DNA from: Inediibacterium massiliense
Lineage (GTDB): Bacteria > Bacillota > Clostridia > Peptostreptococcales > Thermotaleaceae
Assembly (NCBI RefSeq): GCF_001282725.1
Contig: NZ_LN876587.1
Coordinates: 1,359,695 to 1,423,694, forward strand
Length of the DNA stretch: 64,000 nucleotides
Direction of reading: 5' to 3'
The translations under genes and the position numbers were made by a program. Under the pieces are notes generated by a model. The model was not told the origin of the DNA. It did not search any database and saw nothing but the letters and a program-made list of their open reading frames with translations. Below, in pieces: positions 22,834 through 50,510 of this stretch (position 1 is its first letter; each line of letters begins with the position of its first letter).

Positions 22834-22920
22834 TATATAAACTCTCCCATATTCATTAATTTAAAAAATATTTTTGTTGACTTTAGAATCTCAATTATAT
22901 CAATCAACAATATACATATA

Positions 22921-23046
22921 CATTCTAAACGATTTATGTCGTAAAGTTTGTCATTTTGTGACGAATAAAAGAAATATTTAATTCGGAATGGTGCTTCTAC
23001 TATTTTTATAAATTTTTGATTGATGAATGGAAAATGTTGTATAATA
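22921..23046 (+). promoter_or_regulatory. S+P repeat, copy 1 (stem-loop plus promoter)
   Basis: Contains the S hairpin TTTGTCA / TGACGAA with a 5-base loop, the TATTTAATT linker, and the P promoter module: TTGATT 18 bases before TATAAT (AATGGAAAATGTTGTATAAT). The 98-aa gene starts 60 bases later. Confidence 0.8.
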
Positions 23047-23105
23047 TAAAAAATGATTTCTAATGTAATGTATCATAGTAAATATTGAATACTAGGAGGA
23101 ATCAA

Positions 23106-23402
23106 ATGCGAATTCTAAAATATAATTTATTTCCTGAAGCATATAGCTCACATAATAAATTTGTGTCTAAAGAAGGTACTATTGCTGAGTTAATAATGGA
23201 TACTGGAATGCTTTTAAATTCTGATTTTGACAAGGTAATTCCTACACTTAATATACTGAATAATATATTTTTACAAGGAGATTATCCTCGTGCTGGTGAA
23301 TGGGAACCCTTTGAGATCACACAAGAAGAATATCTAGAATTAGTAGCATACCTATGTTCATTACCTTTACCAAGACCATATAGGACTAACGAAAATGTAT
23401 AA
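23106..23402 (+). CDS. Hypothetical protein (98 aa)
   Basis: Start chosen at the ATG behind TAGGAGGAATCAA. Soluble, acidic: MRILKYNLFPEAYSSHNKFV ... EWEPFEITQEEYLELVAYL. No family recognised; size and context (own S+P promoter) suggest a cassette gene. Confidence 0.65.
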   Translation: MRILKYNLFPEAYSSHNKFVSKEGTIAELIMDTGMLLNSDFDKVIPTLNILNNIFLQGDYPRAGEWEPFEITQEEYLELVAYLCSLPLPRPYRTNENV

Positions 23403-23449
23403 GAGTTTTTTATGAAATGATACTATGTTGATTAAATACCTTTTAGGCG

Positions 23450-23600
23450 GTGATTAGAATTAAAGATTCAACCAACGTAAGGATAATTAACATGGAATGG
23501 CTTTCTAAAGAAGGAAATGAGGCAATCGTATCATTTGAGATAAAAATGAATAGCATAGGGTAAAATTTATCTCATAGAATTTATCCTATGATTAATGGAA
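23450..23600 (+). pseudogene. Gene fragment ending in a B repeat
   Basis: GTG frame of 37 codons (MIRIKDSTNVRIINMEWLSK EGNEAIVSFEIK in two parts) whose last residues and TAA come from a B repeat (AATAGCATAGGGTAAAATTT, as at 33369). The gene's real 3' part seems replaced by the repeat. Confidence 0.45.
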
Positions 23601-23637
23601 AAAGTTTTTTAGCATAAAAAATAAAGGAGATAAACTA

Positions 23638-24171
23638 ATGAGCAGAAGCATAATACTTTATATCGCAACAAGTTTAGATGGATATATAGCAAGGAATAAC
23701 GGAGCAGTTGATTGGCTAAGTGGTAATGGCGAGAACCCTAATGCTGATAATGGATACGATGCTTTTTATAGTACAATAGATACCATTATAATGGGAAGAA
23801 CTACATATGAACAGATTATTAATGTACTATCCCCTAATATTTGGGTTTATGAAGGAAAAAAATGTTACGTGGCCACCACAAGAAAAAGTGAAATACATAA
23901 CAAAGTAGAGTTTATATCAAATGATATTACTGGATTTGTTAGAAACTTAAAAAAACAACAAGGTAAAGATATTTGGCTCGTTGGTGGTGGAAAGTTAATC
24001 GACCAATTTATTAAGCAAGACCTTATAGATAAGTACATTATAACAATGGTACCAATTATCCTAGGTGATGGACTTCCCCTATTTTTAAAGGAAAATCCAG
24101 AAATTAAACTTAGACTTATTGAAACAAAAATGGTTGATGGTATGGTTGAACTCAGCTATGTTAGAAGATAA
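23638..24171 (+). CDS. Dihydrofolate reductase family protein (RibD C-terminal type)
   Basis: 177 residues starting MSRSIILYIATSLDGYIARN, with DTIIMGRTTYEQI and DIWLVGGGKLIDQFI, the NADPH-binding motifs of the DHFR/RibD-C family. These single-domain proteins are often of unknown substrate. GGAG lies before the start. A B-like repeat follows at 24211. Confidence 0.9.
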   Translation: MSRSIILYIATSLDGYIARNNGAVDWLSGNGENPNADNGYDAFYSTIDTIIMGRTTYEQIINVLSPNIWVYEGKKCYVATTRKSEIHNKVEFISNDITGFVRNLKKQQGKDIWLVGGGKLIDQFIKQDLIDKYIITMVPIILGDGLPLFLKENPEIKLRLIETKMVDGMVELSYVRR

Positions 24172-24210
24172 TTTCTTCTAACATAGTGTTTAATAGCTTT
24201 GATCTGCTTT

Positions 24211-24233
24211 TCTTATGTTACACAGTAATAGCA
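24211..24233 (+). repeat. B repeat fragment
   Basis: CTTATGTTACACAGTAATAG, a diverged copy of the B hairpin CTTATTTTACGCAACAGTAA, 40 bases after the DHFR-family gene. Confidence 0.5.
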
Positions 24234-24298
24234 AACTGTGAAGTAAAGATTATTTAGATAATGCACAGACAAATAGTAATTTGAGAGGAGAAATTTAT

Positions 24299-24382
24299 AT
24301 GAATATTGCCCTTTGGATTGCAATAGGTGCTACTTTTTTATGTGTTTTTGTGGCTAACAATAAAAAATGTAAGAAGAAATAA
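24299..24382 (+). CDS. Small membrane peptide (27 aa)
   Basis: MNIALWIAIGATFLCVFVAN then NKKCKKK: one membrane helix with a positive tail. Ribosome binding site GAGAGGAG. Followed by another B hairpin copy (24440-24470). Similar in design to the peptides at 10365 and 30889. Confidence 0.55.
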   Translation: MNIALWIAIGATFLCVFVANNKKCKKK

Positions 24383-24439
24383 ATTCCAATTTATAGAGTT
24401 AAAATAACATAATTTTAGCTTTAGTTATATCGCATCTTT

Positions 24440-24470
24440 CTTATTTTACGGCATAGTAAAATATGGAGTA
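24440..24470 (+). repeat. B repeat copy
   Basis: CTTATTTTACGGCATAGTAA: the B hairpin (TTTTAC / GTAAAA) 60 bases after the small peptide gene. Confidence 0.65.
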
Positions 24471-24548
24471 ACAAGTGTATTATTTAACAAAAATATAAAT
24501 AAGCATGAAGTAAATTTATTATTTACTTCATGCTTTGATTTTAGTTTA

Positions 24549-24896
24549 TTACATACCAGCCATCTTTCTACATTCATCTGCACATTTTCTGCATTCTTGT
24601 GCACATTTTTGACAGTGGTCATCTTTAAACATTTCACATTCTTGTGCACATTTATCACAAATGGTTGCACACATTTGGCAATGTTCTTTTGCAAATTGAG
24701 CATCCATTGACATAAGTCCTGCTGACATTTGACACATTTGTGCACATTCAACAAGAATACTTATACAGTTCTTTCTAGCTGCAACATCGGCTTCGTTTAG
24801 ACATGCCTTAAAGCATTCATAACATGCTTGAGCACAACGGTTACATGCATCAATACATGATTGATATTTGTCTGTTGTATTAGTTACTATACCCAT
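24549..24896 (-). CDS. Four-helix bundle copper-binding protein (Csp family)
   Basis: 115 residues from the ATG behind AAAAGGAGTGTTTAAT. Regular cysteine pattern on helices: CIDACNRCAQACYECFKACL, CQMCATICDKCAQECEMF, CQKCAQECRKCADECRKMAG. This is the DUF326/Csp cytosolic copper storage type; no signal peptide, so it should act in the cytoplasm. Two copper-enzyme-like or stress genes are not adjacent, so it is a stand-alone cassette. Confidence 0.88.
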   Translation of the reverse strand: MGIVTNTTDKYQSCIDACNRCAQACYECFKACLNEADVAARKNCISILVECAQMCQMSAGLMSMDAQFAKEHCQMCATICDKCAQECEMFKDDHCQKCAQECRKCADECRKMAGM

Positions 24897-24994
24897 ATTA
24901 AACACTCCTTTTCATTTACTATCTAGTACTGGGTATATTATTTGCGAGTATAAGTTTTTTATACAAGTATAAATAATATTTAAGTCATGGGCTT

Positions 24995-25128
24995 CTCATT
25001 TTACGCAACCGTAAAATAGTATAGGATAAAATTTTATTTTGTGGAATCTAGCTTAAAGAAAATACTTTTTTAAAATATGAACTAAGGGAAGCCCTTTTGG
25101 ACTTCCCTATTTTTATTGTAGGATTAAT
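24995..25128 (+). repeat. B element, full copy with terminator
   Basis: TTTTACGCAACCGTAAAATA hairpin, AT-rich middle (GATAAAATTTTATTTTGTGG), then the terminator AGGGAAGCCC / GGACTTCCCT with a T5 run (25085-25114) and the tail TATTGTAGGATTAAT. Near copies at 36350 and elsewhere. Confidence 0.85.
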
Positions 25129-25164
25129 GTTAACAAGTAGATTTAATATGAAGATATATATAAG

Positions 25165-25206
25165 TTATAAGAGCCAAGGGTTTTAAAGACTGCTTGGCTC
25201 TTATAA
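25165..25206 (-). terminator. Hairpin after the chemoreceptor gene
   Basis: 14-bp perfect stem (TTATAAGAGCCAAG / CTTGGCTCTTATAA) just after the stop. No T run, but strong enough to end transcription or protect the 3' end. Confidence 0.7.
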
Positions 25207-25208
25207 CT

Positions 25209-26903: not shown

Positions 26904-27151
26904 TGTAAAATCTCCCCTTTTCATTCTATTAGTTTCATTAATAAAGAAAATATTTTTTCAAAAATAAAAGTTTAATAGATTATGTGCATTTCGACATTTT
27001 TAGACAATATTCCTGCTTTTTTGTATTAAATTTTACTAAGAAAGTTATTTATGTAGTTTTGTTTTTTATTCGACAGTATTAATCATTTTTATCATATGAG
27101 AGATAGTATAATCTATGTGAATGAATCTATTACTACAAAGGGGGATTTTTC

Positions 27152-27862: not shown

Positions 27863-27864
27863 AT

Positions 27865-28809: not shown

Positions 28810-28915
28810 CTGTTATCTCCCCTTCAACTTAGTAATTATTTTCCATTTTGCTTATATTCCTCACTCCACTATGCTACAATATAATCAAACAAATGTTCTT
28901 TAGGAGGGAAACTTT

Positions 28916-30035
28916 ATGCCTACAGCTGCAATTTACGCAAGAAAATCAAAAGCAACTGAAAAAGGCGAATCTATCGAAAATCAAATATCTCGTGGTAAAG
29001 CCTTATGCCAGTTGCGAGGATGGGATTATATTATCTATGATGACTTTGATATCTCAGGAAAAACTCTTGAAAGACCTGGATTCGAAAAAATAAAGAAGCA
29101 AATCTAATTAAAGACTTTTATACATGGTATCTTGAAGATGATGGTTCTGTAAGAAGTTGTGTATCTAAAGCAAATCAGCTAGGATATAAAACTAAGAATA
29201 ATGCCTATTGGTCCCATAATCAAATGTCTAGAATGTTGCAAAATCCTCTTTACTGTATAGCTGATACCATAGCTTATGATTATTTTAAAAATAATACTGA
29301 TGTTCAAATTGTAAATGAAAAACATGAATTTGATGGAAAGCATGGCCTAATGTTTTATAATCTTAGAAAACCACATAAGAAAACTTCAAGAGAACGTGAG
29401 GAATCAGAATGGATTCTTACTATAGGAGAGCATAAAGGAATTATTACCGGGGAAATGTATAAAAAAGTACAAAAAAAGCTAAATTCAAACAAATATAAAG
29501 CTCCCCGCCATGGACAAAGCATAAAATCCCCTTTTACTGGCCTAGTTCAATGTGGTCGTTGTAAATCATCTATGTCGATTTTTAGTTCTCCTAGAGATTC
29601 AAATAATAAATCAAAAGGATATTACCATTATTTCCGATGTATTACCAGAGAACAAAAATCAAAAATACTGTGTGATAATTACAACATTAGAGCCGATTTA
29701 CTTGAGTATAAAATCGTATCTTATATTAAAAGTTTATGTAATAACAAAGCCTTTGTTTTAAAACTTCTAGACAGTTCCAATGATGATTTGGAAAATAAAC
29801 GTGTGCCTCTGATTGCTAAAAGAAATAAAATTCAATCTAGTATAGATGGAATCGAAAAAGAAATGAATAATTTAGTTATAGCATTGGGAAAAGGTACTTT
29901 ACCAGAAATAATGATTCAGAAAAGATTTAAAGAATTAGAAAACCAAAAAAAAAAGAATTCTTAAAAGAAATTAATGAATATGTAAAGTTCCCATATAGTT
30001 TTGCAATAGTAACCTCTTCATCTTCAATGGGCTGA
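28916..30035 (+). pseudogene. Large serine recombinase, internally deleted and frameshifted
   Basis: Site-specific integrase relic. The N-terminal piece (to 29107) has the catalytic serine in AAIYARKSKATEKGESIENQ and stops after RPGFEKI; the rest of the catalytic domain is missing. The recombinase domain resumes in another frame (LIKDFYTWYLEDDGSVR, WSHNQMSRMLQNPLY) and continues to the zinc ribbon (LVQCGRCKSSMS ... YYHYFRC.TRE..) and coiled coil. At a run of ten A bases (29945-29954) the frame is lost again; one extra A would extend it through EFLKEINEYV into comM-like DNA, ending at 30035. It cannot be active as is. Confidence 0.85.
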
Positions 30036-30450
30036 CGTAACATTTCCAAAACTCTCCTTTCAAATTCAGAAAGTTCATAAAAAATTACTTCTTTAATATA
30101 TATTCTCCCCTTTGATGTATTTAAAAATATATAGTTTTATACATTTTTTGTAAAAAGCTCTTTATCTATTCATTTTTTCTGAATATTTAATTATTTTTAC
30201 ATTGTATTTTTTCTATATCTAAAAAATTATTATTACAAAACACCTATTTATGCAAATCATTGATTCCTAGACATGAGATATATCAAGGAATTTGTATTTA
30301 TGGTGTAAGCATATTTTTATTTCTGAAATTGCTATCTTCTCTAACCTTATAATTAATGCATCTTCTTAAAATGCATTATTAACTTGACTGTTATAATTTA
30401 CCATGGTACTATTATTCTGAATTTTTATTAATTTAGGAGGTATTTATATG
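29977..30450. repeat. Decayed copy of the comM-yraN-10.3 kb flank (displaced att region)
   Basis: In order and same orientation as 7424-10365: a comM piece (29977-30076), the yraN start/upstream piece (30071-30235), and the 10206-10345 piece (30266-30440), with the material between deleted. It begins inside the recombinase 3' end, as an attachment site would. Confidence 0.7.
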
Positions 30451-32348: not shown

Positions 32349-32400
32349 TAGTATACTCACCTCTCTACTTCAACATGATTATCCTAATTATATATTTTAT

Positions 32401-32517
32401 ACCTATTTCATTGTAAATTTTGTCATTTTGTGACGAAAAAAGAAATATTTAATTAGGAGTGATACTTAAACTGTTTTTATAAATCTTTGATTGGCGAATG
32501 GAAAATGTTGTATAATG
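32401..32517 (+). promoter_or_regulatory. S+P repeat, copy 2
   Basis: S hairpin TTTGTCA / TGACGAA (as in copy 1), TATTTAATTAGGAGT, then TTGATT-18-TATAAT. The 63-aa gene starts about 80 bases later. Confidence 0.8.
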
Positions 32518-32595
32518 ATAAGAAACACAAATTAAAAATATTGATCATTAGTTCAATAGATAAGAATTTTTTATTGAAAAGAAGGGAGATTCAAA

Positions 32596-32787
32596 ATGAA
32601 ATTGAATAGACTTGGAATAGTATTTTTATTGTTTGGTTGCATTTTTTCAAGCATTATAATTAACGTTTCTTATTATACTCAAATTTTTCAAATATTTAAT
32701 GAAAATATAGCATTTATATTTTTGAATATAGGATTTACTTCTTTAGGACTCATTCTTATAATTAAAGATTTGGTAAATAGAAATTAA
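32596..32787 (+). CDS. Small membrane protein (63 aa)
   Basis: MKLNRLGIVFLLFGCIFSSI, then IAFIFLNIGFTSLGLILIIKD: two membrane helices. Ribosome binding site AAGGGAG. No family recognised. Followed by a B-like repeat (32797-32830). Confidence 0.6.
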   Translation: MKLNRLGIVFLLFGCIFSSIIINVSYYTQIFQIFNENIAFIFLNIGFTSLGLILIIKDLVNRN

Positions 32788-32796
32788 TACATAATG

Positions 32797-32830
32797 TTCT
32801 GATTTTACACAGCAGTAGAATATTATGAAA
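32797..32830 (+). repeat. B repeat fragment
   Basis: GATTTTACACAGCAGTAGAA, B hairpin variant between two cassette genes. Confidence 0.55.
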
Positions 32831-32850
32831 TACTTACTTAAGGAGGAAAT

Positions 32851-33327
32851 ATGAGCATTAGAACTTATGAGTCAAAGGATTGCCAAGAAATAATTAAATT
32901 ATTTTATGAAACAGTTCATTCAATAAACTCTAAAGACTATACAGAAAAACAACTAGATGTATGGGCTCCTACAGATATAAATATAGATTTATGGGATAAG
33001 TCGTTTTTGAAGAATTATACAATTGTATTTACAATAAATGATACAATTGTTGGATTTGGGGATTTAAGCCTTAGTGGGTACCTCGATAGACTTTTTGTTC
33101 ATAAAAACTACCAAAAACAAGGTATTGCGAAAGAAATTGTTGCAGACTTAGAGAATTATGCTAAAAATATTGGACTAACTACTATTACAACAGAAGCATC
33201 AATAACAGCAAAACCATTCTTTGAAAAACAAGGGTATCATGTTATAAAAGCACAACAGATTGAAAGAAAAGATCAATTCCTTATTAATTATAAAATGGAA
33301 AAATATATTTTAAACCAATCTAATTAG
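32851..33327 (+). CDS. GNAT family N-acetyltransferase
   Basis: 158 residues, ATG behind AAGGAGG. Motif A (LFVHKNYQKQGIAKEIVADLENYA) binds acetyl-CoA; PFFEKQGYHVI is motif B. Resembles the YafP/ElaA-like stand-alone acetyltransferases; substrate unknown. B element follows 22 bases after the stop. Confidence 0.9.
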   Translation: MSIRTYESKDCQEIIKLFYETVHSINSKDYTEKQLDVWAPTDINIDLWDKSFLKNYTIVFTINDTIVGFGDLSLSGYLDRLFVHKNYQKQGIAKEIVADLENYAKNIGLTTITTEASITAKPFFEKQGYHVIKAQQIERKDQFLINYKMEKYILNQSN

Positions 33328-33348
33328 AAAGACAGATTAATGTGCAAT

Positions 33349-33419
33349 ATTCTTATTTTGCGCAACAATGAATAGAATAGGGTAAAATTTTATTTCATGG
33401 AATTTATCTGATGAGTATC
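33349..33419 (+). repeat. B element (hairpin half)
   Basis: CTTATTTTGCGCAACAATGA, GGTAAAATTTTATTTCATGG, GAATTTATC. Lies between the GNAT and DUF5071 genes. Confidence 0.7.
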
Positions 33420-33432: not shown

Positions 33433-33819
33433 ATGAAAAAGAATTGTTTTATACCAAAAGATAAGTTTGACTTTGAAGCAGTGGAGAAAATTAGAAATGC
33501 TGATCCAATAAGTATACAACCAGTTTTACCACAGATTTTTGAATGGGTTGAAGACATAAATTGGCCTGTTGCACAAGAACTAGTAAAAGTTTTGGTTAAG
33601 TTTGATGAATTGATCATTCCTTTTTTAAAGGATTTAATTGGGAACCCTGATGGCTTGAGAGAATACTCTGTGTATTATTATATGATGCCTTTGCTAACAA
33701 ATCGACAGTTACTATTATTAAAGGATGAATTAAAACGAGTAGCTAATCATCCATCCCCTTTTGAAAAAGAAGAAGAATATAATAAAATTGCTCTCGAATA
33801 TCTTGAAAAAATTTTATAA
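33433..33819 (+). CDS. DUF5071 domain protein
   Basis: 128 residues: MKKNCFIPKDKFDFEAVEKI, ILPQ.FEWVEDINWPVAQELV. This short HEAT-like helical family is of unknown function and frequent in toxin-immunity neighbourhoods. ATG behind AAGGGGG. A perfect 12-bp terminator follows. Confidence 0.8.
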   Translation: MKKNCFIPKDKFDFEAVEKIRNADPISIQPVLPQIFEWVEDINWPVAQELVKVLVKFDELIIPFLKDLIGNPDGLREYSVYYYMMPLLTNRQLLLLKDELKRVANHPSPFEKEEEYNKIALEYLEKIL

Positions 33820-33872
33820 AATACTTAGTCGAGCTACTAGAAATTTTTTTATGTTCTTAGATAATTGTATAA

Positions 33873-34027
33873 ATATGAACTAAGGGAAGCCCAGAAGGGC
33901 TTCCCTTAGTTTATTGTAGGATCATTCTAATAACCTATAAGTTTTCATCAATATTATTCATTGATTATTCTATTTGATCTGTTCTTAAAATACCTATAAA
34001 AAAGTGCATATCTTCCTGATTTACAAT
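33873..34027 (+). repeat. B element (terminator half), copy with long tail
   Basis: Terminator TAAGGGAAGCCC / GGGCTTCCCTTA (33881-33908) plus tail with TATTGTAGGAT, AACCTATAAGTTTTCATCAA, GATCTGTTCTTAAAATACC. The tail matches 40245-40356 almost base for base. Confidence 0.85.
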
Positions 34028-35040: not shown

Positions 35041-35106
35041 TTTGCAAAGATTGTAAGAAGATAATTTTATAAATCTTTGATTGGTATATGGAAAATGTTG
35101 TATAAT
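35041..35106 (+). promoter_or_regulatory. P promoter module fused to a gene 3'-end fragment, copy 3
   Basis: TTTGCAAAGATTGTAA.AAGATAATT equals the codons for CKDCKKII at the end of the zinc-ribbon gene at 38599. It is joined without gap to the P module (TTGATT-18-TATAAT, 35083-35106). So this promoter was acquired by recombination. Confidence 0.7.
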
Positions 35107-35144
35107 ATTTTTATAAATATACTTCGTATAGTGAGGTGAAAAAT

Positions 35145-35330
35145 ATGTATGAATATAAATATGTTCAAGCAACTTTAGGAGGTTTCTTTGCCCAAGCCAA
35201 TCATCATGAAATAATAGATAAACATGCTCAAGAAGGTTGGCGATTAGTACAAGTATTACCTATGTATTATAATTCCCATGGAAAACCCACTGACTATGAA
35301 ATTATATTTGAACGTGAAATCATAAAATAA
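35145..35330 (+). CDS. DUF4177 family protein (61 aa)
   Basis: MYEYKYVQATLGGFFAQ, HAQEGWRLVQVLP, YEIIFERE: the compact DUF4177 beta-alpha-beta fold of unknown function. Start chosen behind GTGAGGTGAAAAAT. Confidence 0.8.
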   Translation: MYEYKYVQATLGGFFAQANHHEIIDKHAQEGWRLVQVLPMYYNSHGKPTDYEIIFEREIIK

Positions 35331-35445
35331 ATCTATTCCTCTATTTCTTAAGAATACTCGTTTACAATCTTCTTAATTTTATCCCTCAGTAAAAAATACG
35401 TCACAAAAATACTTTAGTATAAACGAAAGGTAGGGAGAAATAGAT

Positions 35446-36300
35446 ATGTTTATTTATAAAACGCTTGAAAATACAAACATTGAAATACTCCATCAAACAT
35501 TCTTAAGTGCATTTTCTAATTATCAAGTTAAAATCCATTTGTCCCTTTGGAAGTTTCAGCAAATGCTTCAAAGAAGAGGTTATGTTTCATGTCTTTCAAT
35601 AGGTGCATTTAAAAATGAAGAGCTGGTGGGATTTGTATTGAATGGATTTAGAAACTGGAATGGGCATCCAACTGTGTATGACATAGGAACAGGTGTTATA
35701 GGTGAGTATAGAAAACAAGGGATAACAAGTACTATGCTTTTAAATATTAGAGAGTTGATGAAAGAAAAAAAAGTGGAACAATATTTACTTGAAGTAATCC
35801 AATCCAATACATCTGCAATTCAGCTTTACAAAAAACAAGGATTTGAGACTATAAGAAATTTCGGATGTTTTCAGTTAGATAAAAATAAATATAAACCAAT
35901 AACAACCTATAAAGTTGAACATGTGGATAAAATCAATTCAACTAATTGGAAACGATTAACGGAATTTTGGGATTTCACTCCATCTTGGCAAAATTCTATT
36001 GACTCAATCAACACTGTATCAGATACATTTATACATTCTATTATACAGTTTGACGACGCCATCGTGGGATATGGCATTATTGATAAAAAAACAGGAGATA
36101 TTCCTCAAATAGCAGTAAATAGGAATTATAGACATAAAGGAATTGCAAAAAGTATTGTTACGGATCTATTAAAAAATACAGAATCATGTAAGGTTGCTAT
36201 TCTTAATGTAGATGACGAGTCTACCTCTACGAAAGAATTTTTACTCGAATTAGGATTTGAATATACTATTGGCCAATATGAAATGATTTCAAAATTATGA
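35446..36300 (+). CDS. Tandem GNAT acetyltransferase (284 aa)
   Basis: Two GNAT domains. The first has TGVIGEYRKQGITSTMLLNI (acetyl-CoA loop) and AIQLYKKQGFE; the second has IAVNRNYRHKGIAKSIVTDLL. Stand-alone cassette gene with B element after the stop. Substrate unknown. Confidence 0.88.
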   Translation: MFIYKTLENTNIEILHQTFLSAFSNYQVKIHLSLWKFQQMLQRRGYVSCLSIGAFKNEELVGFVLNGFRNWNGHPTVYDIGTGVIGEYRKQGITSTMLLNIRELMKEKKVEQYLLEVIQSNTSAIQLYKKQGFETIRNFGCFQLDKNKYKPITTYKVEHVDKINSTNWKRLTEFWDFTPSWQNSIDSINTVSDTFIHSIIQFDDAIVGYGIIDKKTGDIPQIAVNRNYRHKGIAKSIVTDLLKNTESCKVAILNVDDESTSTKEFLLELGFEYTIGQYEMISKL

Positions 36301-36349
36301 GTTTTTTCGCAAAATGAATGATCTCTTATAAAATATTGTGACGTAATAT

Positions 36350-36489
36350 TCTATTTTACGCAGCAGTAGAATAGCATGAGATAAAATTTTATTCTATGAA
36401 ATTTATCTTACAGAAAATACTTTTTTTAAAAATATGAACTAAGGGAAGTCCTTTTGGACTTCCCTGTTTTTATTGTAGGATTAATACTA
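36350..36489 (+). repeat. B element, full copy with terminator
   Basis: CTATTTTACGCAGCAGTAGAA, GATAAAATTTTATTCTATG, then terminator AGGGAAGTCC / GGACTTCCCT (36442-36471) and TATTGTAGGATTAATACTA. Very close to the copy at 24995. Confidence 0.85.
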
Positions 36490-36549
36490 TTGCAAAACAT
36501 ATGATCTCCCATCATCGCTTGTATTGCTAATTTCGTTAACATTTTTAAA

Positions 36550-37092
36550 TTACATTACACTTATATACTTATTCGGAACATAATCACATAACCATACTTT
36601 GTTTTTAGATAAATAGAATTGATATCCATCTAAATACATTTTGCCAGCTTCTATTTTTAGAATCACCGGTATACCTCTTCTCTTCCCCACTATCTTAGCT
36701 ATTTCAATATTTGTACTTAAATGTACATATTGTCTTTGTCCCTTTTTTATTCCCTCCTTTAAAATAGGGAGTACATACTTTTGTATTGTACCATGATAAA
36801 GATATTGAGGTGGAATTTCTTTTTCTAGCTCAATATCAACATCTATAGAATGTCCTTGATTTGCACGAATTTTTGTCCCGTCATCATTATATGTATATCT
36901 ATCTTTATCATCCATCTTAACGATCTCATCAAGTTGACTACGATTTATTATTTTCCCATTTTTATTCATTCTAAATAATAGATCATCAACATCACACCAT
37001 CCATGATTATCTAATTTAACTCCTATAATCTCTGGCTTGTGGCGTAAAATCAAACTAATATATTTACTTAATTTCGTATTTGGATTTTCCAT
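36550..37092 (-). CDS. kptA: RNA 2'-phosphotransferase (Tpt1/KptA family)
   Basis: Transfers a 2'-phosphate from RNA to NAD+. 180 residues from the ATG behind AAGGAGTGATCTT (the longer frame to 37125 has no site). Conserved parts: LSKYISLILRHKPE, LDNHGWCDVDDLL, LYHGTIQKYVLPIL, QYVHLSTN, VILKIEAGKMYLDG. Bacterial KptA usually has no tRNA-splicing role; a role in RNA repair or NAD-dependent modification is suspected. Confidence 0.92.
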   Translation of the reverse strand: MENPNTKLSKYISLILRHKPEIIGVKLDNHGWCDVDDLLFRMNKNGKIINRSQLDEIVKMDDKDRYTYNDDGTKIRANQGHSIDVDIELEKEIPPQYLYHGTIQKYVLPILKEGIKKGQRQYVHLSTNIEIAKIVGKRRGIPVILKIEAGKMYLDGYQFYLSKNKVWLCDYVPNKYISVM

Positions 37093-37278
37093 AAGATCAC
37101 TCCTTGAATATTTAGATTGCTTCAATTATTAATATCATCAAATCATACTAGTATTATTTATAAAATAAACTAGTCATGATTTATCTCTTTTTATTTCATT
37201 CAACCATAATATCCATAATACTTTTCTATTCATTTATTTCTTCTTGTTTTTTAAATTATACTTCACATTATAAATATT

Positions 37279-38244: not shown

Positions 38245-38429
38245 ATTCTCCTCCTATTTAGCTTTTATTTAAATTACATACCAAGATGATTAGATTTGTA
38301 TGTAATATCTAGTATCTTAAATCTGTAATAGCATATCTTTATTCAAAAGGAATAACCACTGCTAGAAAAAGACATCACTAACAATGCTGTAATTTAAATA
38401 TATCCTTTTCCATCTTAACCCATTATCTC
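38245..38429. other. Gap
   Basis: Divergent upstream region between the MORN gene and the next cassette; nothing recognised. Confidence 0.4.
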
Positions 38430-38531
38430 TGCAAATTTTGTCGTTTCATGGCGAAAAAAATATTTAATCTGGAATGTTTCTTCTTCTGTTTTTGTAAATC
38501 TTTGATAGGTGTATGGAAAATGTTGTATAAT
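38430..38531 (+). promoter_or_regulatory. S+P repeat, copy 4
   Basis: S hairpin with several changed positions that still pair (TTTGTCG / TGGCGAA counting G-T pairs), then TTGATA-18-TATAAT. The zinc-ribbon gene starts 68 bases later. Confidence 0.75.
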
Positions 38532-38598
38532 AAGATATTGTGAAAGAATGATCATTTATATCACACTCAAACAAACGAAATTTTAGGAGGATCTAAAT

Positions 38599-38805
38599 AT
38601 GAAATGTCCATATTGTAATACAGAAATGAAAGAAGGAATTTTACAATCTAACCGTTATTTACTGTGGGCAAAAACAAAGCACAAATTATCCTACCATCCA
38701 AAAGATGAAGAGATTTTACTTGATGAGAAAATGATTGGCGATGTTACAGTAGAAGCATATATTTGCAAAGATTGTAAAAAGATAATTCTTGACTATAATA
38801 TCTAA
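38599..38805 (+). CDS. Small zinc-ribbon protein (68 aa)
   Basis: MKCPYCNTEMKEGILQSNRY ... YICKDCKKIILDYN: two CxxC pairs form one zinc ribbon. This small family is of unknown function, probably nucleic-acid or protein binding. TTTTAGGAGGATCTAAAT precedes the ATG. A fragment of its 3' end lies at 35041. Confidence 0.8.
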   Translation: MKCPYCNTEMKEGILQSNRYLLWAKTKHKLSYHPKDEEILLDEKMIGDVTVEAYICKDCKKIILDYNI

Positions 38806-38840
38806 TAAATTCCAATTTATCGTTTAGTTAATTCTCAACA

Positions 38841-38890
38841 TTCTTTACGTGGCAGTAAAATAGCATAGGTTTAAATTTTATTTTATATTC
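38841..38890 (+). repeat. B repeat (hairpin half)
   Basis: TTCTTTACGTGGCAGTAAAA, TAGCATAGGTTTAAATTTTA. Confidence 0.65.
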
Positions 38891-38905
38891 AAAAATCTAC
38901 CTAGA

Positions 38906-39100
38906 TTATTTTACACTATATCTATTTCTATATTCAGAAGGTGTACAATTCATATATTTTTTAAATACTTTTCCAAAATAGCTTATTCCATTAAATCCTA
39001 CATCAAAAGCAATGATAGAAATAGATTTTTTACTTTTTAAAAGTAGTTCTAATGCCTTTAAAATTCTATATTTCATTAAGTATTCAAAAATTTTTATCAT
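38906..39100 (-). pseudogene. AraC-family C-terminal fragment
   Basis: 64 codons: YRILKALELLLKSKKSISII, FDVGFNGISYFGKVFKKYMN, TPSEYRNRY. This is the second helix-turn-helix of an AraC regulator. The ligand domain and first helices are missing and no ribosome binding site precedes it. It is divergent from the EamA gene, which it may once have controlled. Confidence 0.75.
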
Positions 39101-39255
39101 CTCGCTAATATAGTTTTAATTTTTGACAATATATTAATTGTTATATATTGAAAATAATAATAAAATTATTATAGATTTATTCAAACCAATCAATATGTTT
39201 TCAATAAACTTATAACTTGTTCAGAATACTTGAAAAGAAAGTGAGTGAATATTTA

Positions 39256-40170
39256 ATGAAGTTACAACCAAGGGTAAAAGGAATAATACTTGTAATTATA
39301 AGCACCATGTTATGGGGAGTATCAGGTACTGTTGCACAATACTTGTTTCAGAAAAAAGGGTTTAGTCCAGAGTGGCTTGTTGTGATTCGTCTATTAGTAT
39401 CAGGAATCATTTTGTTATTATATGCTTTTATAAAAAGTAAACAAGATCTATGGATAATCTGGAGATCTAAACATACTATATTGAGTCTCATTCTTTTTAG
39501 CATTATAGGGATGTTAGGTGTGCAATATGCCTATTTTGCTGCTATTAAATATGGAAATGCAGCTACAGCCACAATACTTCAATATTTGTCACCAGTGTTA
39601 ATTACTTGCTATTTAGCTATTCGTACTAAAAAAATGCCGAATTTACAAGAAATTACAGCTGTTGTTTTAGCCATGTTAGGTACATTTTTTATCATTACAA
39701 AAGGTAATATACATACTATATCTATTTCTAGATTAACATTATTTTGGGGCATTAGCTCTGCTTTTGCAGCAGCTTTCTATACACTAAAGTCTCATTCTCT
39801 TCTTGCTAAATGGAATTCTACAATTATAGTTGGATGGGGAATGCTCATTGGTGGAATAGCTTTTAGTTTCGTTCATAAGCCCTGGAATTTTACAGGTCAA
39901 TGGTCTATTACTTCAATATTTGCTGTTATATTTGTAGTATTATTTGGAACCCTTATTGCTTTTTATTGCTATTTAGAAAGTTTAAAATATATACAACCAA
40001 CAGAAGCAAGCATATTATCCTCTGTTGAACCTTTATCTGCAGCTTTTTTATCGGTATTATGGTTACATGTTCCTTTAGGTATGTCTCAATGGTTAGGAAC
40101 AGCATGCATTATATTTACAGTTGTAATTTTATCTCGTGCAAAAAATAAGGAAAGTATTGTTGAGTTTTAA
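39256..40170 (+). CDS. EamA family (DMT) transporter
   Basis: 304 residues from the ATG at 39256; a TTG 39 bases upstream is possible. Ten hydrophobic segments in two EamA halves (GIILVIISTMLWGVSGTVAQ; LTLFWGISSAFAAAFYTLKS). Such transporters export small metabolites. The B terminator follows 40 bases after the stop. Confidence 0.9.
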   Translation: MKLQPRVKGIILVIISTMLWGVSGTVAQYLFQKKGFSPEWLVVIRLLVSGIILLLYAFIKSKQDLWIIWRSKHTILSLILFSIIGMLGVQYAYFAAIKYGNAATATILQYLSPVLITCYLAIRTKKMPNLQEITAVVLAMLGTFFIITKGNIHTISISRLTLFWGISSAFAAAFYTLKSHSLLAKWNSTIIVGWGMLIGGIAFSFVHKPWNFTGQWSITSIFAVIFVVLFGTLIAFYCYLESLKYIQPTEASILSSVEPLSAAFLSVLWLHVPLGMSQWLGTACIIFTVVILSRAKNKESIVEF

Positions 40171-40194
40171 AAGTATAAAAGTAGTTAAAATTTT

Positions 40195-40356
40195 ATTAAA
40201 ATATGAACTGAGGGAAGCCCTTTTATCCTTCCCTGTTTTTATTGTAGGATTAATACTAATAACCTGTAGGTTTTCATCAATATTATTCATTTATTATTCT
40301 ATTTGATCTGTTATTAAAATACCTATAAAACAGTGCATATCTTCTTGATTGACAAT
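40195..40356 (+). repeat. B element (terminator half) with long tail
   Basis: Terminator AGGGAAG / CTTCCCT (40211-40240), TATTGTAGGATTAATACTAA, AACCTGTAGGTTTTCATCAA, then runs directly into the recombinase fragment. Tail nearly identical to 33910-34027. Confidence 0.85.
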
Positions 40357-40560
40357 ACTTCACTATGCTACAATATAATCAAACATGCGTTCTTTAAAAG
40401 GAAATTTCTATGCCTACATCTGCAATTTATGTAATAAATCAAGAGTAACTGAAAAAGGCGAATTCAAATATCTCACGGTAAAGCCTTATGTCCGTTATGA
40501 AGATGGGATTATATTATCTATGATAACTTTGACTCTCAAAAGACCGTGATTCGAAAAGAG
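40357..40560 (+). pseudogene. Second serine-recombinase N-terminal fragment
   Basis: Repeats the promoter (CACTATGCTACAATATAATC) and first about 60 codons of the recombinase at 28863-29090, with small deletions that remove the catalytic serine region (reads MPTSAIYVINQE). It ends GATTCGAAAA as in RPGFEK. Confidence 0.8.
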
Positions 40561-42753: not shown

Positions 42754-42762
42754 ATCTTTTCA

Positions 42763-43610: not shown

Positions 43611-43707
43611 ATAATCACTCCTCTTAAATTATTATCTATAGATATTTCATATTATATACGTTTATAAATAATAATCTTAGTGATCATTTTAAAATGAAAA
43701 TATCATT

Positions 43708-43795
43708 TTTTTCCGTGAATTCTGTTATCTTGTGATGAGAAGAAAAAATATTTAATTAAGAACGATGCCTCAACTGTGTTTGTAACTCTTTGATA
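43708..43795 (+). repeat. S element copy 5, overlapping the EamA gene end
   Basis: CTGTTATCTTGTGATGAG hairpin, AAATATTTAATTAAGAACGA, GTGTTTGTAACTCTTTGATA. The P part ends before the -10. The last dozen codons of the EamA gene are the antisense of this repeat. Confidence 0.7.
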
Positions 43796-44718: not shown

Positions 44719-44834
44719 TTTGACTCTCCTTGTTTGACAATTCTTATCTTAAGTAAAAGATAGCTTTTTTATAACACTCATTATCTTAAATCTTACATCC
44801 CTAGCAACAGATATGATCTTTAGATACATTCATA

Positions 44835-44932
44835 AATATTCTAAACGATTCTTGTCGTAAGTTTTGTCATTTTGTGACGAAAATATAAGCTGTTTAGGAA
44901 TAGTGCTTCAACTATCTTTGTAAATCTTTTGC
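44835..44932 (+). repeat. S element copy 6
   Basis: CTAAACGATTCTTGTCGTAA, TTTGTCATTTTGTGACGAAA, GTGCTTCAACTATCTTTGTA. The -10 is missing. It lies between two minus-strand genes. Confidence 0.75.
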
Positions 44933-44997
44933 AAATAGACATTACAAAAGAGGATTAACAAATAAAACTTACCCTCTTATAACATGGGCTTCTTTCT

Positions 44998-45909: not shown

Positions 45910-46116
45910 AATTCTCCTCCTACATATATTATAAATTATACTGCATTTTTCTGCTTGACTCTAAAAATTCTGTCCAGTTTCGTATAGCTTATCCACAAAT
46001 ATACTACCTTTAGTATATTTTTTATTTCTGGAATTTTTGCATATTCCTAAAATAATTTGAAACAATAATAATTATTATTGCTTTTGTTCATACAATATAA
46101 GTTGGGAGAGATAAAA

Positions 46117-46578: not shown

Positions 46579-46584
46579 AAGTTA

Positions 46585-46620
46585 AATAGGTTTCCCTATT
46601 TGGGAGGCCTATTTTCTTAT
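46585..46620 (+). terminator. Terminator
   Basis: AATAGG ... GCCTATT stem with inner CCC/GGG and a T tract. Confidence 0.65.
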
Positions 46621-46770
46621 TATGTACAAAGTCTGTCTCCTATGACTCTCTAGCTCACCATAACTCGCTCTAAATCATCCATATTATTATCACCTAAAGT
46701 ATCATCAAATATCTTTCTCACTTTAGCTAACCTCGTCAAGATATCCCTTTATATATCTTTATACCTTTTA

Positions 46771-46911
46771 TTTTATCATTTTATGATGAAAAGAAGAAAT
46801 ATTTAATTAGGAATGGTGCTTCAACTATTTTGATATGTTTTTAGATAAAAAATACATTAACTGAAGTTTATATAAATCTTTGATTGTCAAATGGAAAATG
46901 TTGTATAATAG
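46771..46911 (+). promoter_or_regulatory. S+P repeat, copy 7
   Basis: S hairpin with a base-pair change (TTTATCA / TGATGAA), GAATGGTGCTTCAACTATTT, a 45-base insertion, then TTGATT-18-TATAAT. Confidence 0.8.
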
Positions 46912-46970
46912 TAAGATAAAATAACATAGCTTTATATTATAAAGTAAGGACAATGAAAAGGAGGTATATG

Positions 46971-47065
46971 TATTGTTTTTATTTAATCTTGATAAAACTG
47001 CTTGGCAATTTATTAAAATATGAATTCAGTGAAGCCTTTTGCTCATCATCCTTTTTTACTCGCAA
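46971..47065 (+). other. Possible empty cassette
   Basis: Behind the copy-7 promoter: AAAAGGAGGTATATG start, a 35-codon frame running straight into a B terminator remnant (AAAATATGAATTCAGTGAAG, compare ATATGAACTGAGGGAAG). No gene is left between promoter and terminator modules. Confidence 0.55.
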
Positions 47066-47185
47066 AATTAGGTAATTCTTATATTAGATGGTAATATAAT
47101 ATTTGATCTAATTTCAAATTTATGGTAGAATTTTATTCATAATTTTACAAATCCCACTACATCTAACAAGGAGATTTTAAATGAT

Positions 47186-47629
47186 ATGGAAGTCAAAATT
47201 ATAGAGAACAATAAAAAAGATTTTTTAGATTTGTTGCTTTTAGGTGATGAACAAGAAAGTATGATCGATAAATACTTGCATAGAGGAAAATTGTTTGCAT
47301 TATATGACAAAGACTTAAAAAGTGCCTGTGTTGTAACAAAAGAAAACAATCATGAATACGAGCTCAAAAATTTAGCTACATATGAAAATTATCAAAGACA
47401 AGGATATGGAAGTATCTTGGTAAAGTATATATTTGAGTACTATAAAGACAAATGCAAGACGATGTTTGTAGGCACTGGAGACACTCCTATGACAATTCCA
47501 TTTTATGAATATTGCGGATTCAAGCTTTCTCATACAGTAAAAAATTTTTTCATTGATAATTATGATCATCCTATTTTTGAAAATGGCATTCAGCTTATTG
47601 ATATGATTTATCTAAGAAAGGATTTCTGA
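47186..47629 (+). CDS. GNAT family N-acetyltransferase
   Basis: 147 residues: [20 protein letters not shown] (acetyl-CoA motif), [15 protein letters not shown]. Typical of a clostridial stand-alone acetyltransferase. A B hairpin lies 42 bases after the stop. Confidence 0.9.
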
Positions 47630-47670
47630 GAATTATAAACATAAATTATTTGATTAATGTAGTAAATCAT

Positions 47671-47697
47671 ATTCTTATTTTACGCAACAGTAAAAAA
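47671..47697 (+). repeat. B repeat (hairpin half)
   Basis: TTCTTATTTTACGCAACAG then TAAAAAATT. Confidence 0.7.
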
Positions 47698-47727
47698 TTA
47701 TATAACAAATCAAAAGTGAGGTAATAT

Positions 47728-48393
47728 ATGAAGAAAAATAAAAATATCATAATGATTATTTTTGTATATGTAATTCTATTGATTATTGGATTTATATTTA
47801 ATCATGTTAAAATTCCTATAAGCAATAACGGAATTATTTTTATTTCTTATTTAATTAATGTATCTATTATTATTTTCATGGTAATAAAAATAGACAAAGA
47901 GTCATTGCAGGTAGTCGGATTCACAAAAATTTCAATATTAGATATTACTGGAGGATTCATTTTAGGGATAGTTTTATATCTAATGCAAATACTTCCACCG
48001 ATATTTTTTATGCATATAGATATCAGCTCATTTGGAAATCAGCCAAATTTTACAGCTATCCTATTACGCTTTCTATTTTTAGCTATTACAGTCGGGTTAG
48101 GAGAAGAACTGGTTTATAGGGGTTACTTTTTACACAAACTCGAAAATGTGTTTTCTTCTCAATTATTAGTAGTATGTTTGAATTGTATGTTATTTTATGG
48201 TAGCCATCTTACAAAGATTTTTCAATTTAATATAACAGAGGTTTACAGTACATTTCTTACTACAATACTGCTTTGTACATATTTTTATTTATCCAAGAAA
48301 AGAAGCATTATTCCTTTAATTATTGCTCATGCTGTATTAGATACTTTAATGGGCAAAGCTGGTTTTTCAATTTTAAACTTATTGATGAAATAA
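47728..48393 (+). CDS. CPBP family intramembrane metalloprotease
   Basis: 221 residues, about seven membrane helices. Conserved motifs: GLGEELVYRGYF (EExxxR), FYGSHL, PLIIAHAVLDTLMG. This family (Rce1-like) often handles peptides or bacteriocin immunity. The next GNAT gene follows after 20 bases, so they are cotranscribed. Confidence 0.9.
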   Translation: MKKNKNIIMIIFVYVILLIIGFIFNHVKIPISNNGIIFISYLINVSIIIFMVIKIDKESLQVVGFTKISILDITGGFILGIVLYLMQILPPIFFMHIDISSFGNQPNFTAILLRFLFLAITVGLGEELVYRGYFLHKLENVFSSQLLVVCLNCMLFYGSHLTKIFQFNITEVYSTFLTTILLCTYFYLSKKRSIIPLIIAHAVLDTLMGKAGFSILNLLMK

Positions 48394-48413
48394 TAAAGGG
48401 AGGTTTATCATTT

Positions 48414-48914
48414 ATGAAATCTATCCCAGATAATAAAGATCATTCTATTGAGTTTATCCATATCACTAGACAAGATATGATAAAACAAGTCAGACAACTT
48501 TTTTTGGAATATGCACAATCACTAAAAATAGATCTTGCTTTTCAAGATTTCGAATCAGAGGTTAAAACACTACCAGGAAAATATAGTCCTCCTGATGGAA
48601 CTTTGATATTAGGATTGTCTGATGGTAAAGTGGCAGGATGCATTGCTCTTCGCAAGATTTCTAAAGAAATATGTGAAATGAAAAGACTATATGTTCGTGA
48701 TGCTTATAGAGGAATAGGAATTGGTCAAATGCTTATTGCTACGATCATTCAAGAAGCCTCAAAACTTAATTATCATTATATTAGACTTGATACTCTTCCA
48801 ATGATGAAAAAAGCACAAGCCTTATACACATCATTCGGATTTTATGATATTGAACCCTATGTATACAATCCTATTAAAGGAACAAGATTTATGGAGTTGA
48901 AATTAAACGACTAA
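48414..48914 (+). CDS. GNAT family N-acetyltransferase
   Basis: 166 residues; start chosen at the ATG behind GGGAGG rather than an upstream in-frame start. EMKRLYVRDAYRGIGIGQML is the acetyl-CoA motif; AQALYTSFGFYDIEPY motif B. Same operon as the CPBP gene. Confidence 0.9.
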   Translation: MKSIPDNKDHSIEFIHITRQDMIKQVRQLFLEYAQSLKIDLAFQDFESEVKTLPGKYSPPDGTLILGLSDGKVAGCIALRKISKEICEMKRLYVRDAYRGIGIGQMLIATIIQEASKLNYHYIRLDTLPMMKKAQALYTSFGFYDIEPYVYNPIKGTRFMELKLND

Positions 48915-49007
48915 TTCTTATTCTCTAAAATAAAACAAATTTGACTACTTCTAGACAAATATTATCAATATCTCATACCAAAATATATCCTTGTTACATT
49001 TTACACC

Positions 49008-49127
49008 TATTTTATCCTCTGATGACGAAAAATTTTTTTAAATCTTATGTTTCAATTTTCTCAAACATATAAACTACTTAGTCGTATGAGAGTATTTATT
49101 TGACTTTTATTTTTCCTTTGTTATAAT
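49008..49127 (+). promoter_or_regulatory. Weak S remnant and antiporter promoter
   Basis: TATTTTATCCTCTGATGACG resembles the S hairpin. At 49100-49127 TTGACT and TATAAT are 16 bases apart, about 130 bases before the antiporter. The rest of the 48915-49259 gap is featureless. Confidence 0.5.
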
Positions 49128-49259
49128 GATATTCAATCCAACATATTGAATAATTTCAAATATTTTCAATTTGTGTAGAGAATGATAAATTTATGAATAT
49201 ATGTTCAAATCATTTAATCTATCACAAAATAAATATATAATCCAGAGGAGAATCTAAAA

Positions 49260-50465
49260 ATGAATGCTTTGTATTATGTATCCATCATCTTAATAGCCGG
49301 TATGATCATGGCTAGAATTGTATCCAAACTAAATTTGCCCTATGTAACTGGATATCTATTAGGAGGAATTATTATAGGCCCTTCTTTTTTTAATTTAATC
49401 CCCATAAATATTTCTATTCAATTGTCCATCATCTCGGAAGTAGCATTAGGATTTATTGCATATAGCATAGGAAGTGCATTCAACATTACAGACATGAAAA
49501 AACTTGGAAAATCCATATTCTTAATCACATTACTAGAATCTATAGGTGGCGTTTTAGTAGTTTTTATAACTATGTTTTTCGTTTTTAAACAACCTCTATC
49601 CTTCAGTCTTATTTTATCATCTATTGCTGCTACTACAGCTCCAGCAGCAACTATCATGGTAATTAGACAATATAAAGCTAAAGGAAAACTTGTTAATACA
49701 CTATTACCTGTAGTAGCTATGGATGATGCTATAGGTATTATAATTTTTGGTACTATCGTATCCATCACCAAACAATTATCTAACACTGTCAATGATTTTT
49801 CTTTAACCCATGGATTACTTCCTCCAATTTGGGAAATTGTAACTACTTTAGTTTTAGGTATTATTATAGGATCTATATTGGTATTCCTTTCGCAAAAATC
49901 AAAGAATGGAGACGAACTATTAAGTATAGTAATTGCTGGGATTTGTTTATCCATAGGGATTGCAAAGTTATTAAATATATCTATTCTTCTTTTATGTATG
50001 GCTATCGGGGCTGTAATCAGCAATATTTCTCCTAACAATAAAAAAGTAATCACCATCGCTGACTATTTTACTCCTCCTATTTATATTATGTTTTTTACAT
50101 TAGCTGGAGTAGAATTAGATATAAAATTGATCAAATATGTAGGCATATTAGGAATAGGATATATCCTATCTAGGGTAACAGGAAAAATTATTGGATCATA
50201 CTTAGGTTGTAAATTATCAAATATGCCTAGAACAATACAAAAATATTTGGGATTTACTCTAATCCCTCAAGCAGGTGTTGCCATAGGATTATCTATGACT
50301 GCCCAATTAGATTTCCCACAGGTAGGAGCTAAAATAAGAACAATTATCCTTGGAGCAACTATTATATATGAACTCATAGGACCTTCTATTACTAAATATG
50401 CACTCATAAAATCAGGGGATATCACATTAAAAAATTCTAAAATTCAAACTGTTCAAGAGTTATAA
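49260..50465 (+). CDS. CPA2-type cation:proton antiporter
   Basis: 401 residues, 11-13 membrane segments; LPYVTGYLLGGIIIGPSFFN at the start and VVAMDDAIGIIIFGTIV in the core are typical of the KefB/NapA Na+(K+)/H+ antiporter family. No TrkA-N domain. Ends before a B-type terminator. Confidence 0.92.
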   Translation: MNALYYVSIILIAGMIMARIVSKLNLPYVTGYLLGGIIIGPSFFNLIPINISIQLSIISEVALGFIAYSIGSAFNITDMKKLGKSIFLITLLESIGGVLVVFITMFFVFKQPLSFSLILSSIAATTAPAATIMVIRQYKAKGKLVNTLLPVVAMDDAIGIIIFGTIVSITKQLSNTVNDFSLTHGLLPPIWEIVTTLVLGIIIGSILVFLSQKSKNGDELLSIVIAGICLSIGIAKLLNISILLLCMAIGAVISNISPNNKKVITIADYFTPPIYIMFFTLAGVELDIKLIKYVGILGIGYILSRVTGKIIGSYLGCKLSNMPRTIQKYLGFTLIPQAGVAIGLSMTAQLDFPQVGAKIRTIILGATIIYELIGPSITKYALIKSGDITLKNSKIQTVQEL

Positions 50466-50473
50466 TTCCATAA

Positions 50474-50510
50474 CGAAGGAAGTCCTCTTGGACTTCCCGT
50501 TCTTTTTTTC
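50474..50510 (+). terminator. Terminator of the antiporter gene (B-like)
   Basis: GGAAGTCC / GGACTTCC stem with a T7 run; same stem as the B element terminators (AGGGAAGTCC / GGACTTCCCT). Confidence 0.85.

Follow-up and report, generated by a model that had tools for sequence, protein, structure and literature searches.

The textbook example of captured genes that are expressed at once is the integron, which requires the integrase IntI and attC sites. In the excerpts cited here, attC sites are given as 57-141 bp long with two simple sites (PMC3053210), the pdif modules of Acinetobacter are described as genes between short sites with two inverted arms and a 6-bp centre, their enzyme being encoded elsewhere (PMC6449649), dif modules are said to occur as C and D modules, i.e. 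with sites in both orientations, and RecV of Clostridioides difficile is presented as an unlinked tyrosine recombinase with several short imperfect repeats (PMC5903667, PMC2784873). Here, we describe rows of small genes in the 3.5-Mb genome of Inediibacterium massiliense (G000, 99.24% complete), within a 64-kb stretch of DNA (G000:C14:1359695-1423694) that is called the window throughout. A short palindromic repeat, X, lies between genes of these rows, and we consider it an even chance that the genes are integron-like single-gene cassettes, exchanged at X by an unlinked recombinase behind a fixed promoter. No account of such arrays was found in the open-licence literature searched.

Palindrome X and the gene rows

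Rows and repeats were located by self-comparison of the window, and profiles were then built from those same repeat copies. Five rows were counted, with 4, 3, 2, 2 and 3 genes, in the layout S-P-gene-X-gene-X-B: an S-P leader stands in front, B often stands at the end, and the third repeat, X, lies between the genes and, in rows 1 and 3, before B. The X core reads TATTTTAC-6 nt-GTARAATA, with TATWTTAC as the left half-site and GTARAATA as the right half-site, and its best copies have 8-bp inverted arms around 6 nt. The X profile found eight copies at junctions (E 2.3e-17 to 3.6e-6); in addition, a weak one stands at 24209 and a half-conserved one at 35376. When 14 arm positions were scored with a spacer of 5-7 nt, six of the 13 row junctions reached at least 13/14, as against a mean of 0.0 in same-length stretches of other intergenic window DNA and 0.04 in Markov shuffles; the copies at 23522 and 33344 have a degenerate core and hence are not counted among the six. 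In an alignment of 11 window matches, three of them not at junctions, X formed a conserved island with 60-69% identity from -10 to +10 and at most 42% outside.

We then searched the core with up to three mismatches. The I. massiliense genome gave five matches, all on the + strand and all in the rows, and the reversed control gave none. Across the order, the pattern matched in 54 of 393 genomes including this one. X as an order-wide site was rejected, as any other genome held at most three matches and the reversed control also matched many genomes; the exact form looks local because no other of the 393 genomes has more than three matches. The features of the rows are as follows (window coordinates, strand, feature, evidence).

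22909-23053, +, row 1 leader, S then P (profile matches; TTGATT-18-TATAAT at 23016-23045)
23085-23402, +, row 1 gene 1, no Pfam family (Pfam scan)
23522-23588, +, X with degenerate core (profile E 3.2e-11; best arm score elsewhere in the junction 11/14)
23638-24171, +, row 1 gene 2, RibD_C/DHFR-like (Pfam)
24209-24253, +, weak X-like site (profile E 0.4)
24299-24382, +, row 1 tiny reading frame of 27 amino acids (read from the sequence)
24432-24478, +, X, ATTTTAC-GGCATA-GTAAAAT (profile, core pattern, arm score)
24549-24905, -, row 1 gene, DUF326, cysteine-rich (Pfam)
24991-25055, +, X ahead of B, ATTTTAC-GCAACC-GTAAAAT (profile, core pattern, arm score)
25064-25138, +, B terminator repeat of row 1 (profile)
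32382-32528, +, row 2 leader, S then P (profile; promoter pattern)
32596-32787, +, row 2 gene 1, small, no Pfam family (Pfam scan)
32792-32840, +, X, ATTTTAC-ACAGCA-GTAGAAT (profile, core pattern, arm score)
32851-33327, +, row 2 gene 2, GNAT (Pfam)
33344-33411, +, X with degenerate core (profile E 8.8e-16; arm score 10/14)
33433-33819, +, row 2 gene 3, DUF5071, next junction (to B) without X (Pfam; arm score)
33861-33936, +, B of row 2 (profile)
35059-35112, +, row 3 leader, P without full S (profile)
35145-35330, +, row 3 gene 1, DUF4177 (Pfam)
35376-35395, +, half-conserved X, ATTTTAT-CCCTCA-GTAAAAA, its right arm being the 5′ limit of the shared GNAT (12/14)
35446-36300, +, row 3 gene 2, GNAT, also in three other genomes (Pfam; genome comparison)
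36349-36410, +, X ahead of B, ATTTTAC-GCAGCA-GTAGAAT (profile, core pattern, arm score)
36420-36494, +, B of row 3 (profile; hairpin)
38398-38538, +, row 4 leader, S then P (profile; promoter pattern)
38599-38805, +, row 4 gene 1, DUF6487 (Pfam)
38839-38903, +, X, TCTTTAC-GTGGCA-GTAAAAT (profile; 13/14)
38923-39089, -, remnant, part of an AraC-type gene in G015 (genome comparison)
39217-40170, +, row 4 gene 2, EamA transporter, next junction (to B) without X (Pfam; arm score)
40189-40264, +, B of row 4 (profile)
43701-43794, +, S with a weak P-like tail (profile, P part E 0.0012)
44824-44929, +, S with a weak P-like tail (profile, P part E 0.0023)
46734-46918, +, row 5 leader, S then P (profile)
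47005-47065, +, degenerate B near the start of row 5 (profile)
47186-47629, +, row 5 GNAT, with an 87% identical copy behind X in Anaerophilus nitritogenes (Pfam; genome comparison)
47669-47710, +, X, ATTTTAC-GCAACA-GTAAAAA (profile, core pattern, arm score)
47728-48393, +, row 5 gene, Rce1-like (CPBP) protein (Pfam)
48417-48914, +, row 5 GNAT, no X in front (Pfam; arm score)

With profiles made from the same copies, S gave nine copies (E 3e-20 to 3.3e-11), P five (E 2.3e-19 to 5.4e-12) and B five (E 1.9e-21 to 2.5e-12), with a degenerate B at 47005; the S copies at 19101, 20619 and 31661 are of a variant type and lie outside the rows. In whole-genome searches, the S-P query had nine matches, eight of them within the window, and the X-B query had 36, of which the best seven (E up to 0.006) all lie in the window and the remaining 29 have E of 0.01-0.9. 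S, P and B are almost restricted to the window within this genome. P includes TTGATT or TTGATA, then 18 nt and TATAAT (promoter-like matches overall were no commoner than in shuffles, 126 vs 122); B forms a hairpin that is rich in GC and is followed by a T-rich tail (copy 36442-36465). The S-P leaders, with a promoter predicted from their sequence, precede rows of 2-4 genes, i.e. gene rows behind a shared promoter. Unrelated genes follow P and precede B; the row genes are small and mutually unrelated, as identified by Pfam (GNAT, EamA, RibD_C, DUF326, DUF4177, DUF5071, DUF6487 and Rce1-like), and the Pfam scan gave no family match for 23085-23402 and 32596-32787.

An earlier note on this DNA had proposed single-gene cassettes laid out as S-P-gene-B. 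Its S/P and B repeats are real and lie where it had placed them, as self-comparison and the profiles demonstrated, and its small unrelated genes were borne out by Pfam. The layout was right in that S/P and B frame the rows; it had missed the two to four genes per row, the X between them, and the incomplete units (S without P at 43701 and 44824, P without full S at 35059, and row 5 with its single degenerate B near the row start).

Half-sites and gene borders in related genomes

We further compared the window with Anaerophilus nitritogenes (G001), of the same genus, and with G015, G014, G012 and G013 from other genera, using one genome per species. A larger array was found in G015 (C1:1297.9-1335.8 kb). 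Of its 39 listed genes, 37 share a strand, and composite repeats of up to ~550 nt (30 matched pieces) stand between the genes. Its cargo comprises GNATs (Acetyltransf_1 in 6/39), regulators, hydrolases, a permease and unknowns, and G012 and G014 carry similar arrays. The composite repeat includes a hairpin terminator as well as a 5′ fragment of the sporulation gene yunB, of which an intact copy lies nearby (assigned by Pfam PF09560 for the own copy and by DNA similarity for the others). Copies of the composite repeat also form a small second array in I. massiliense (C14:1534-1546 kb). The yunB 5′ fragments occur in many copies per array (G015:C1:1296000-1336000, G012:C22 and G014:C25; L048-L050, L056-L059).

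The leaders and terminators of G015, G012 and G014 differ in sequence from S, P and B, whereas the half-sites are the same. Leaders in these genomes are conserved up to ACAATAGTARAAT (AGTARAAT) and are then followed by unrelated genes: across 14 hand-chosen sites anchored on AGT, which inflates identity at the anchor (one of 15 sites was dropped for having no anchor), mean pairwise identity was 71-84% at -30 to 0, 54% at +10, 43% at +15 and lower beyond. The terminator repeat opens at TTCTTATATTACG, with identity of at most 44% up to -20 and 70-74% thereafter, in an alignment of 22 matches of which several are chance or overlapping. Thus, the right arm closes the leader and the left arm opens the terminator repeat in the related genera. 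X combines a terminator-side left half with a leader-side right half, as expected of a two-cassette junction. A matrix built from the G015 leader sites alone gave three forward matches on the window at 14 bits, all of them X, and no reverse match; at 13 bits, five forward and one reverse matches were found.

A few genes common to two genomes showed sharp borders at these arms, clearly at both ends for one gene and in part for two more. Compared in 60-nt steps, one GNAT gene has 92-100% identity between G015 and G014, with unrelated upstream sides, and its borders lie at AGTARAAT on the 5′ side and at TTATATTGCG on the 3′ side. The terminator repeat beside it is 80-85% identical over its first 150 nt and 83-93% further on. 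Similarly, the ASCH gene of G015 and G012 (97% over 113 nt) is common up to TTATATTGTG, a left arm, and then diverges, and G012 and G014 have one leader type with different genes from the right arm onward.

These borders bear on RecA-type homologous exchange between the repeated leaders and terminators, by which whole leader-gene-terminator units would be moved or duplicated. Such exchange accounts for the duplicated units, composite repeats of up to ~550 nt run throughout the G015 array, and one G015/G012 shared segment covers a repeat together with a gene start. However, identity at the G015/G014 GNAT drops at the repeat edge and not inside the repeat, the upstream sides are without homology, X itself is only ~24 nt, and the sharp borders are left unexplained. 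We regard this process as an improbable source of the gene exchange. The fall from 92-100% to 80-85% at the repeat edge likewise does not fit the homology exchange inside promoter and terminator repeats which the earlier note had offered.

Both flanks of the array region are syntenic with A. nitritogenes, and 44.8 kb (8955-53771) of the window correspond to 3.4 kb there, a stretch with a P-like leader (match in A. nitritogenes MJB2, NZ_RYYS01000032.1) and one window gene, the row-3 GNAT. Homology around this gene runs from window 35388 (AGTAAAA, right arm) to 36358 (TATTTTA, left arm). The gene is also present in G015 and G013 at 89-90% identity, with 5′ limits at 35388 and 35393; in the four genomes, a short TAYACAAT is all that is common upstream before the sequences become unrelated, and divergence occurs at the right arm. 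The 3′ limit at the left arm is common to A. nitritogenes only; the limit is the stop codon in G015 and a point 36 nt past the stop in G013. For the row-5 GNAT, A. nitritogenes carries X (TTCTTATTTTGCG-TAATT-GTAGAAAAT) ahead of its copy, and the window has another sequence at the same place, with a right-arm-like GTAGAATTT. Taken together, the exchange which had been predicted precisely at S/P and B borders was not borne out: the sharp borders found sit in X, at the right arm on the 5′ side and the left arm on the 3′ side. The idea of cassettes itself survives in part, as single array genes recur in other species and genera beside different neighbours, with borders that are not S/P and B.

Several observations weigh against exchange at X. 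In the window, seven of the 13 junctions score at most 12/14, and X is lacking ahead of B in rows 2 and 4 as well as between 48393 and 48417. Shared non-repeat segments (76 of at least 100 nt and at least 80% identity, a set in which syntenic flanks, tandem repeats and chromosomal homologs are not separated) mostly end away from the arms: exact AGTARAA stands near the 5′ end of both copies in three (two independent genes; random positions 0.94%) and of at least one copy in seven, and one segment has an exact left arm at the 3′ end in both copies (random positions 0.19%). For the G015/G014 GNAT, A. nitritogenes has a copy of the 3′ part that diverges at the stop codon, and G009 has the first 154 nt (82% identity) but not the AGTA. 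A 1.8-kb piece that is 95% identical in G015 and A. nitritogenes has borders away from the arms, the EamA cassette shows no clear border between the window and G015, and neither an empty site nor a circle was seen, the search for empty sites yielding just two 8-mismatch matches. Duplicated leader-terminator units are plain, and therefore another process is needed besides exchange at X; deletions and an IS605-type insertion account for several G012/G013 differences. In the genomes searched for PF00589 (G000, G001, G013 and G015), no tyrosine recombinase of this family was found close to the array of G015 or inside the rows of the window. The earlier note had named large-block change unrelated to the repeats as evidence against cassettes, and this was partly seen, in the contraction to 3.4 kb and in the many segments that end off the arms.

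The main rival is a gene-turnover hotspot. In this reading, the repeats S, P, X and B, like the half-sites, serve only as expression signals (promoter, 5′ leader and 3′ end) carried along with genes, which are gained and lost through illegitimate events, insertion sequences and deletions. The off-arm segment ends and the G012/G013 differences speak for it, the region sits between conserved flanks, and the right arm ACAATAGTA resembles a -10 box plus start region (the P copy at 46900 reads GTATAATAGTAA). However, a left arm at 3′ ends that matches the right arm in inverted form is unexpected of promoter parts, X is a short island amid unrelated sequences, and the GNAT and ASCH borders lie at the arms. 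A hotspot of this kind is in our judgement rather unlikely.

Further candidates were discarded. An insertion in G012 beside a right arm was rejected as a cassette event, as it carries an IS605 TnpB gene. G014:C25:6914-8179 was rejected as an insertion and is a deletion instead, because the FMN oxidoreductase gene at this place is retained at both its ends in G013. Phage carriage was rejected, since near-match and exact-pattern searches gave no match in the phage collection, and neither the P nor the X pattern was found in viral contigs by the same two kinds of search. Plasmid carriage was rejected as well: with the same two kinds of search, only five Acinetobacter records matched, over 61-87 bases within a PhzF gene.

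Known gene-capture systems and candidate recombinases

The rows resemble integrons and CALIN in that unrelated, mostly promoterless small genes follow one promoter with a palindromic site between them. The cargo is also similar, with GNATs and two array proteins that match Pfam Cass2 ('integron-associated effector binding protein'; L049:427-1263 and L058:3104-3958), and the X arms resemble the RYYYAAC/GTTRRRY cores with TAC/GTA replacing AAC/GTT. In contrast, X is one short site, whereas attC has 57-141 bp and two simple sites in the excerpt cited (PMC3053210), and the rows here close with a terminator repeat. A search for the integron integrase (TIGR02249) in the I. massiliense genome gave 17 matches, none above the 265-bit cut-off (best 83.9), which agrees with the earlier claim that no integron integrase is present. 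No RYYYAAC..GTTRRRY pair of attC length was found at any of the 13 junctions (+80 nt on each side, both strands, no attC covariance model), and the simple-site form was at chance level (22 observed vs 26 expected). The statement that attC-like core sites are lacking is thus true for attC, but it overlooked X. Integron membership was rejected, with no IntI above the cut-off and no attC-like pair. These arrays would function like an integron yet fail two defining integron features as tested.

X shares with dif modules the two inverted arms around a 6-nt centre. The resemblance is one of geometry, with X arms of TATTTTAC/GTAAAATA. Unlike the C and D modules, all X are in one orientation (8 profile copies and 5 genome core matches, + strand). 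The locus recalls RecV in that a 181-amino-acid tyrosine recombinase is encoded away from the arrays in I. massiliense, A. nitritogenes and G015. RecV inverts DNA between inverted repeats, whereas X sites are direct repeats and gene content varies. RecV offers a precedent for an unlinked master recombinase (PMC5903667).

PF00589 proteins were present in all four genomes searched, and the closest to the G015 array is ~0.2 Mb away. An array-adjacent recombinase was rejected for the tyrosine type, the only one searched for by family. In I. massiliense, A. nitritogenes and G015, the 181-amino-acid protein, which is XerA/FimB-like, is encoded at most 2 kb from a XerC-like protein of ~295 amino acids. 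Both fall below all NCBIfam cut-offs, and as candidate array recombinases they are a lead only.

Other features were observed in and around the rows. A large serine recombinase has left remnants at window 28863-29964 and 40357-40532, namely one broken copy and a further copy of the start, and A. nitritogenes has a comparable remnant close to its P-GNAT locus (L019:73-299). Minus-strand defence-like genes at 17882-22679 include those for an ABC-three-component CTD6 protein and an nSTAND3 NTPase, between which lie two proteins without a Pfam family; the variant S-like repeats at 19101 and 20619 fall in this stretch. Segments 7406-7533 and 8834-8986 recur fused at 29962-30227, 20 kb off, with 88-92% identity; judged from the sequence, the fused copy is the apparent scar of a duplication with internal deletion. 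A gene for a KptA/Tpt1 RNA 2′-phosphotransferase (36550-37125) lies between rows 3 and 4, and the sole Rfam match in the window, an FMN riboswitch at 55007-55120, is downstream of the array region.

A possible gene-capture process at X

Under exchange at X, a row would be a fixed S-P promoter leader, single-gene cassettes and often a fixed B terminator, with each cassette made up of the right half-site GTARAATA, the gene and the left half-site TATWTTAC. X would be recreated wherever two cassettes join, or where a single one closes to form a putative circle. A tyrosine recombinase encoded elsewhere would exchange strands in the 6-nt centre, and an incoming gene would land behind the promoter, with immediate expression.

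A different enzyme is conceivable, namely an IS200/IS605-type transposase which acts in trans by single-strand transposition, with the X hairpin as its recognition signal and joining beside TTAC. A small hairpin can form from X, with z from -1.5 to -2.2 in its best copies, the left arm ends in TTAC, a target of some IS605-family elements, and a TnpB element lies within the G012 array. However, two of the six + strand stretches folded have z near 0, the G012 element has its own ends, and the scanned row genes include no such transposase, so that we hold this explanation to be very improbable.

Returning to cassette exchange at X by a tyrosine recombinase, we find it plausible, at somewhat short of an even chance, that the arrays represent a separate gene-capture system of Clostridia, in which a palindromic core of 22-24 bp (TATTTTAC-N6-GTARAATA) is the site of single-gene excision and insertion, leader and terminator stay fixed, an unlinked host tyrosine recombinase acts, and cassettes circulate between genera of the family. 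If this is true, a second and simpler array design, built on a short site with an unlinked enzyme, would suggest more than one origin for such arrays, and anaerobic Clostridia would hold a reservoir of adaptive genes, among them acetyltransferases, transporters and regulators, at a site that escapes attC searches.

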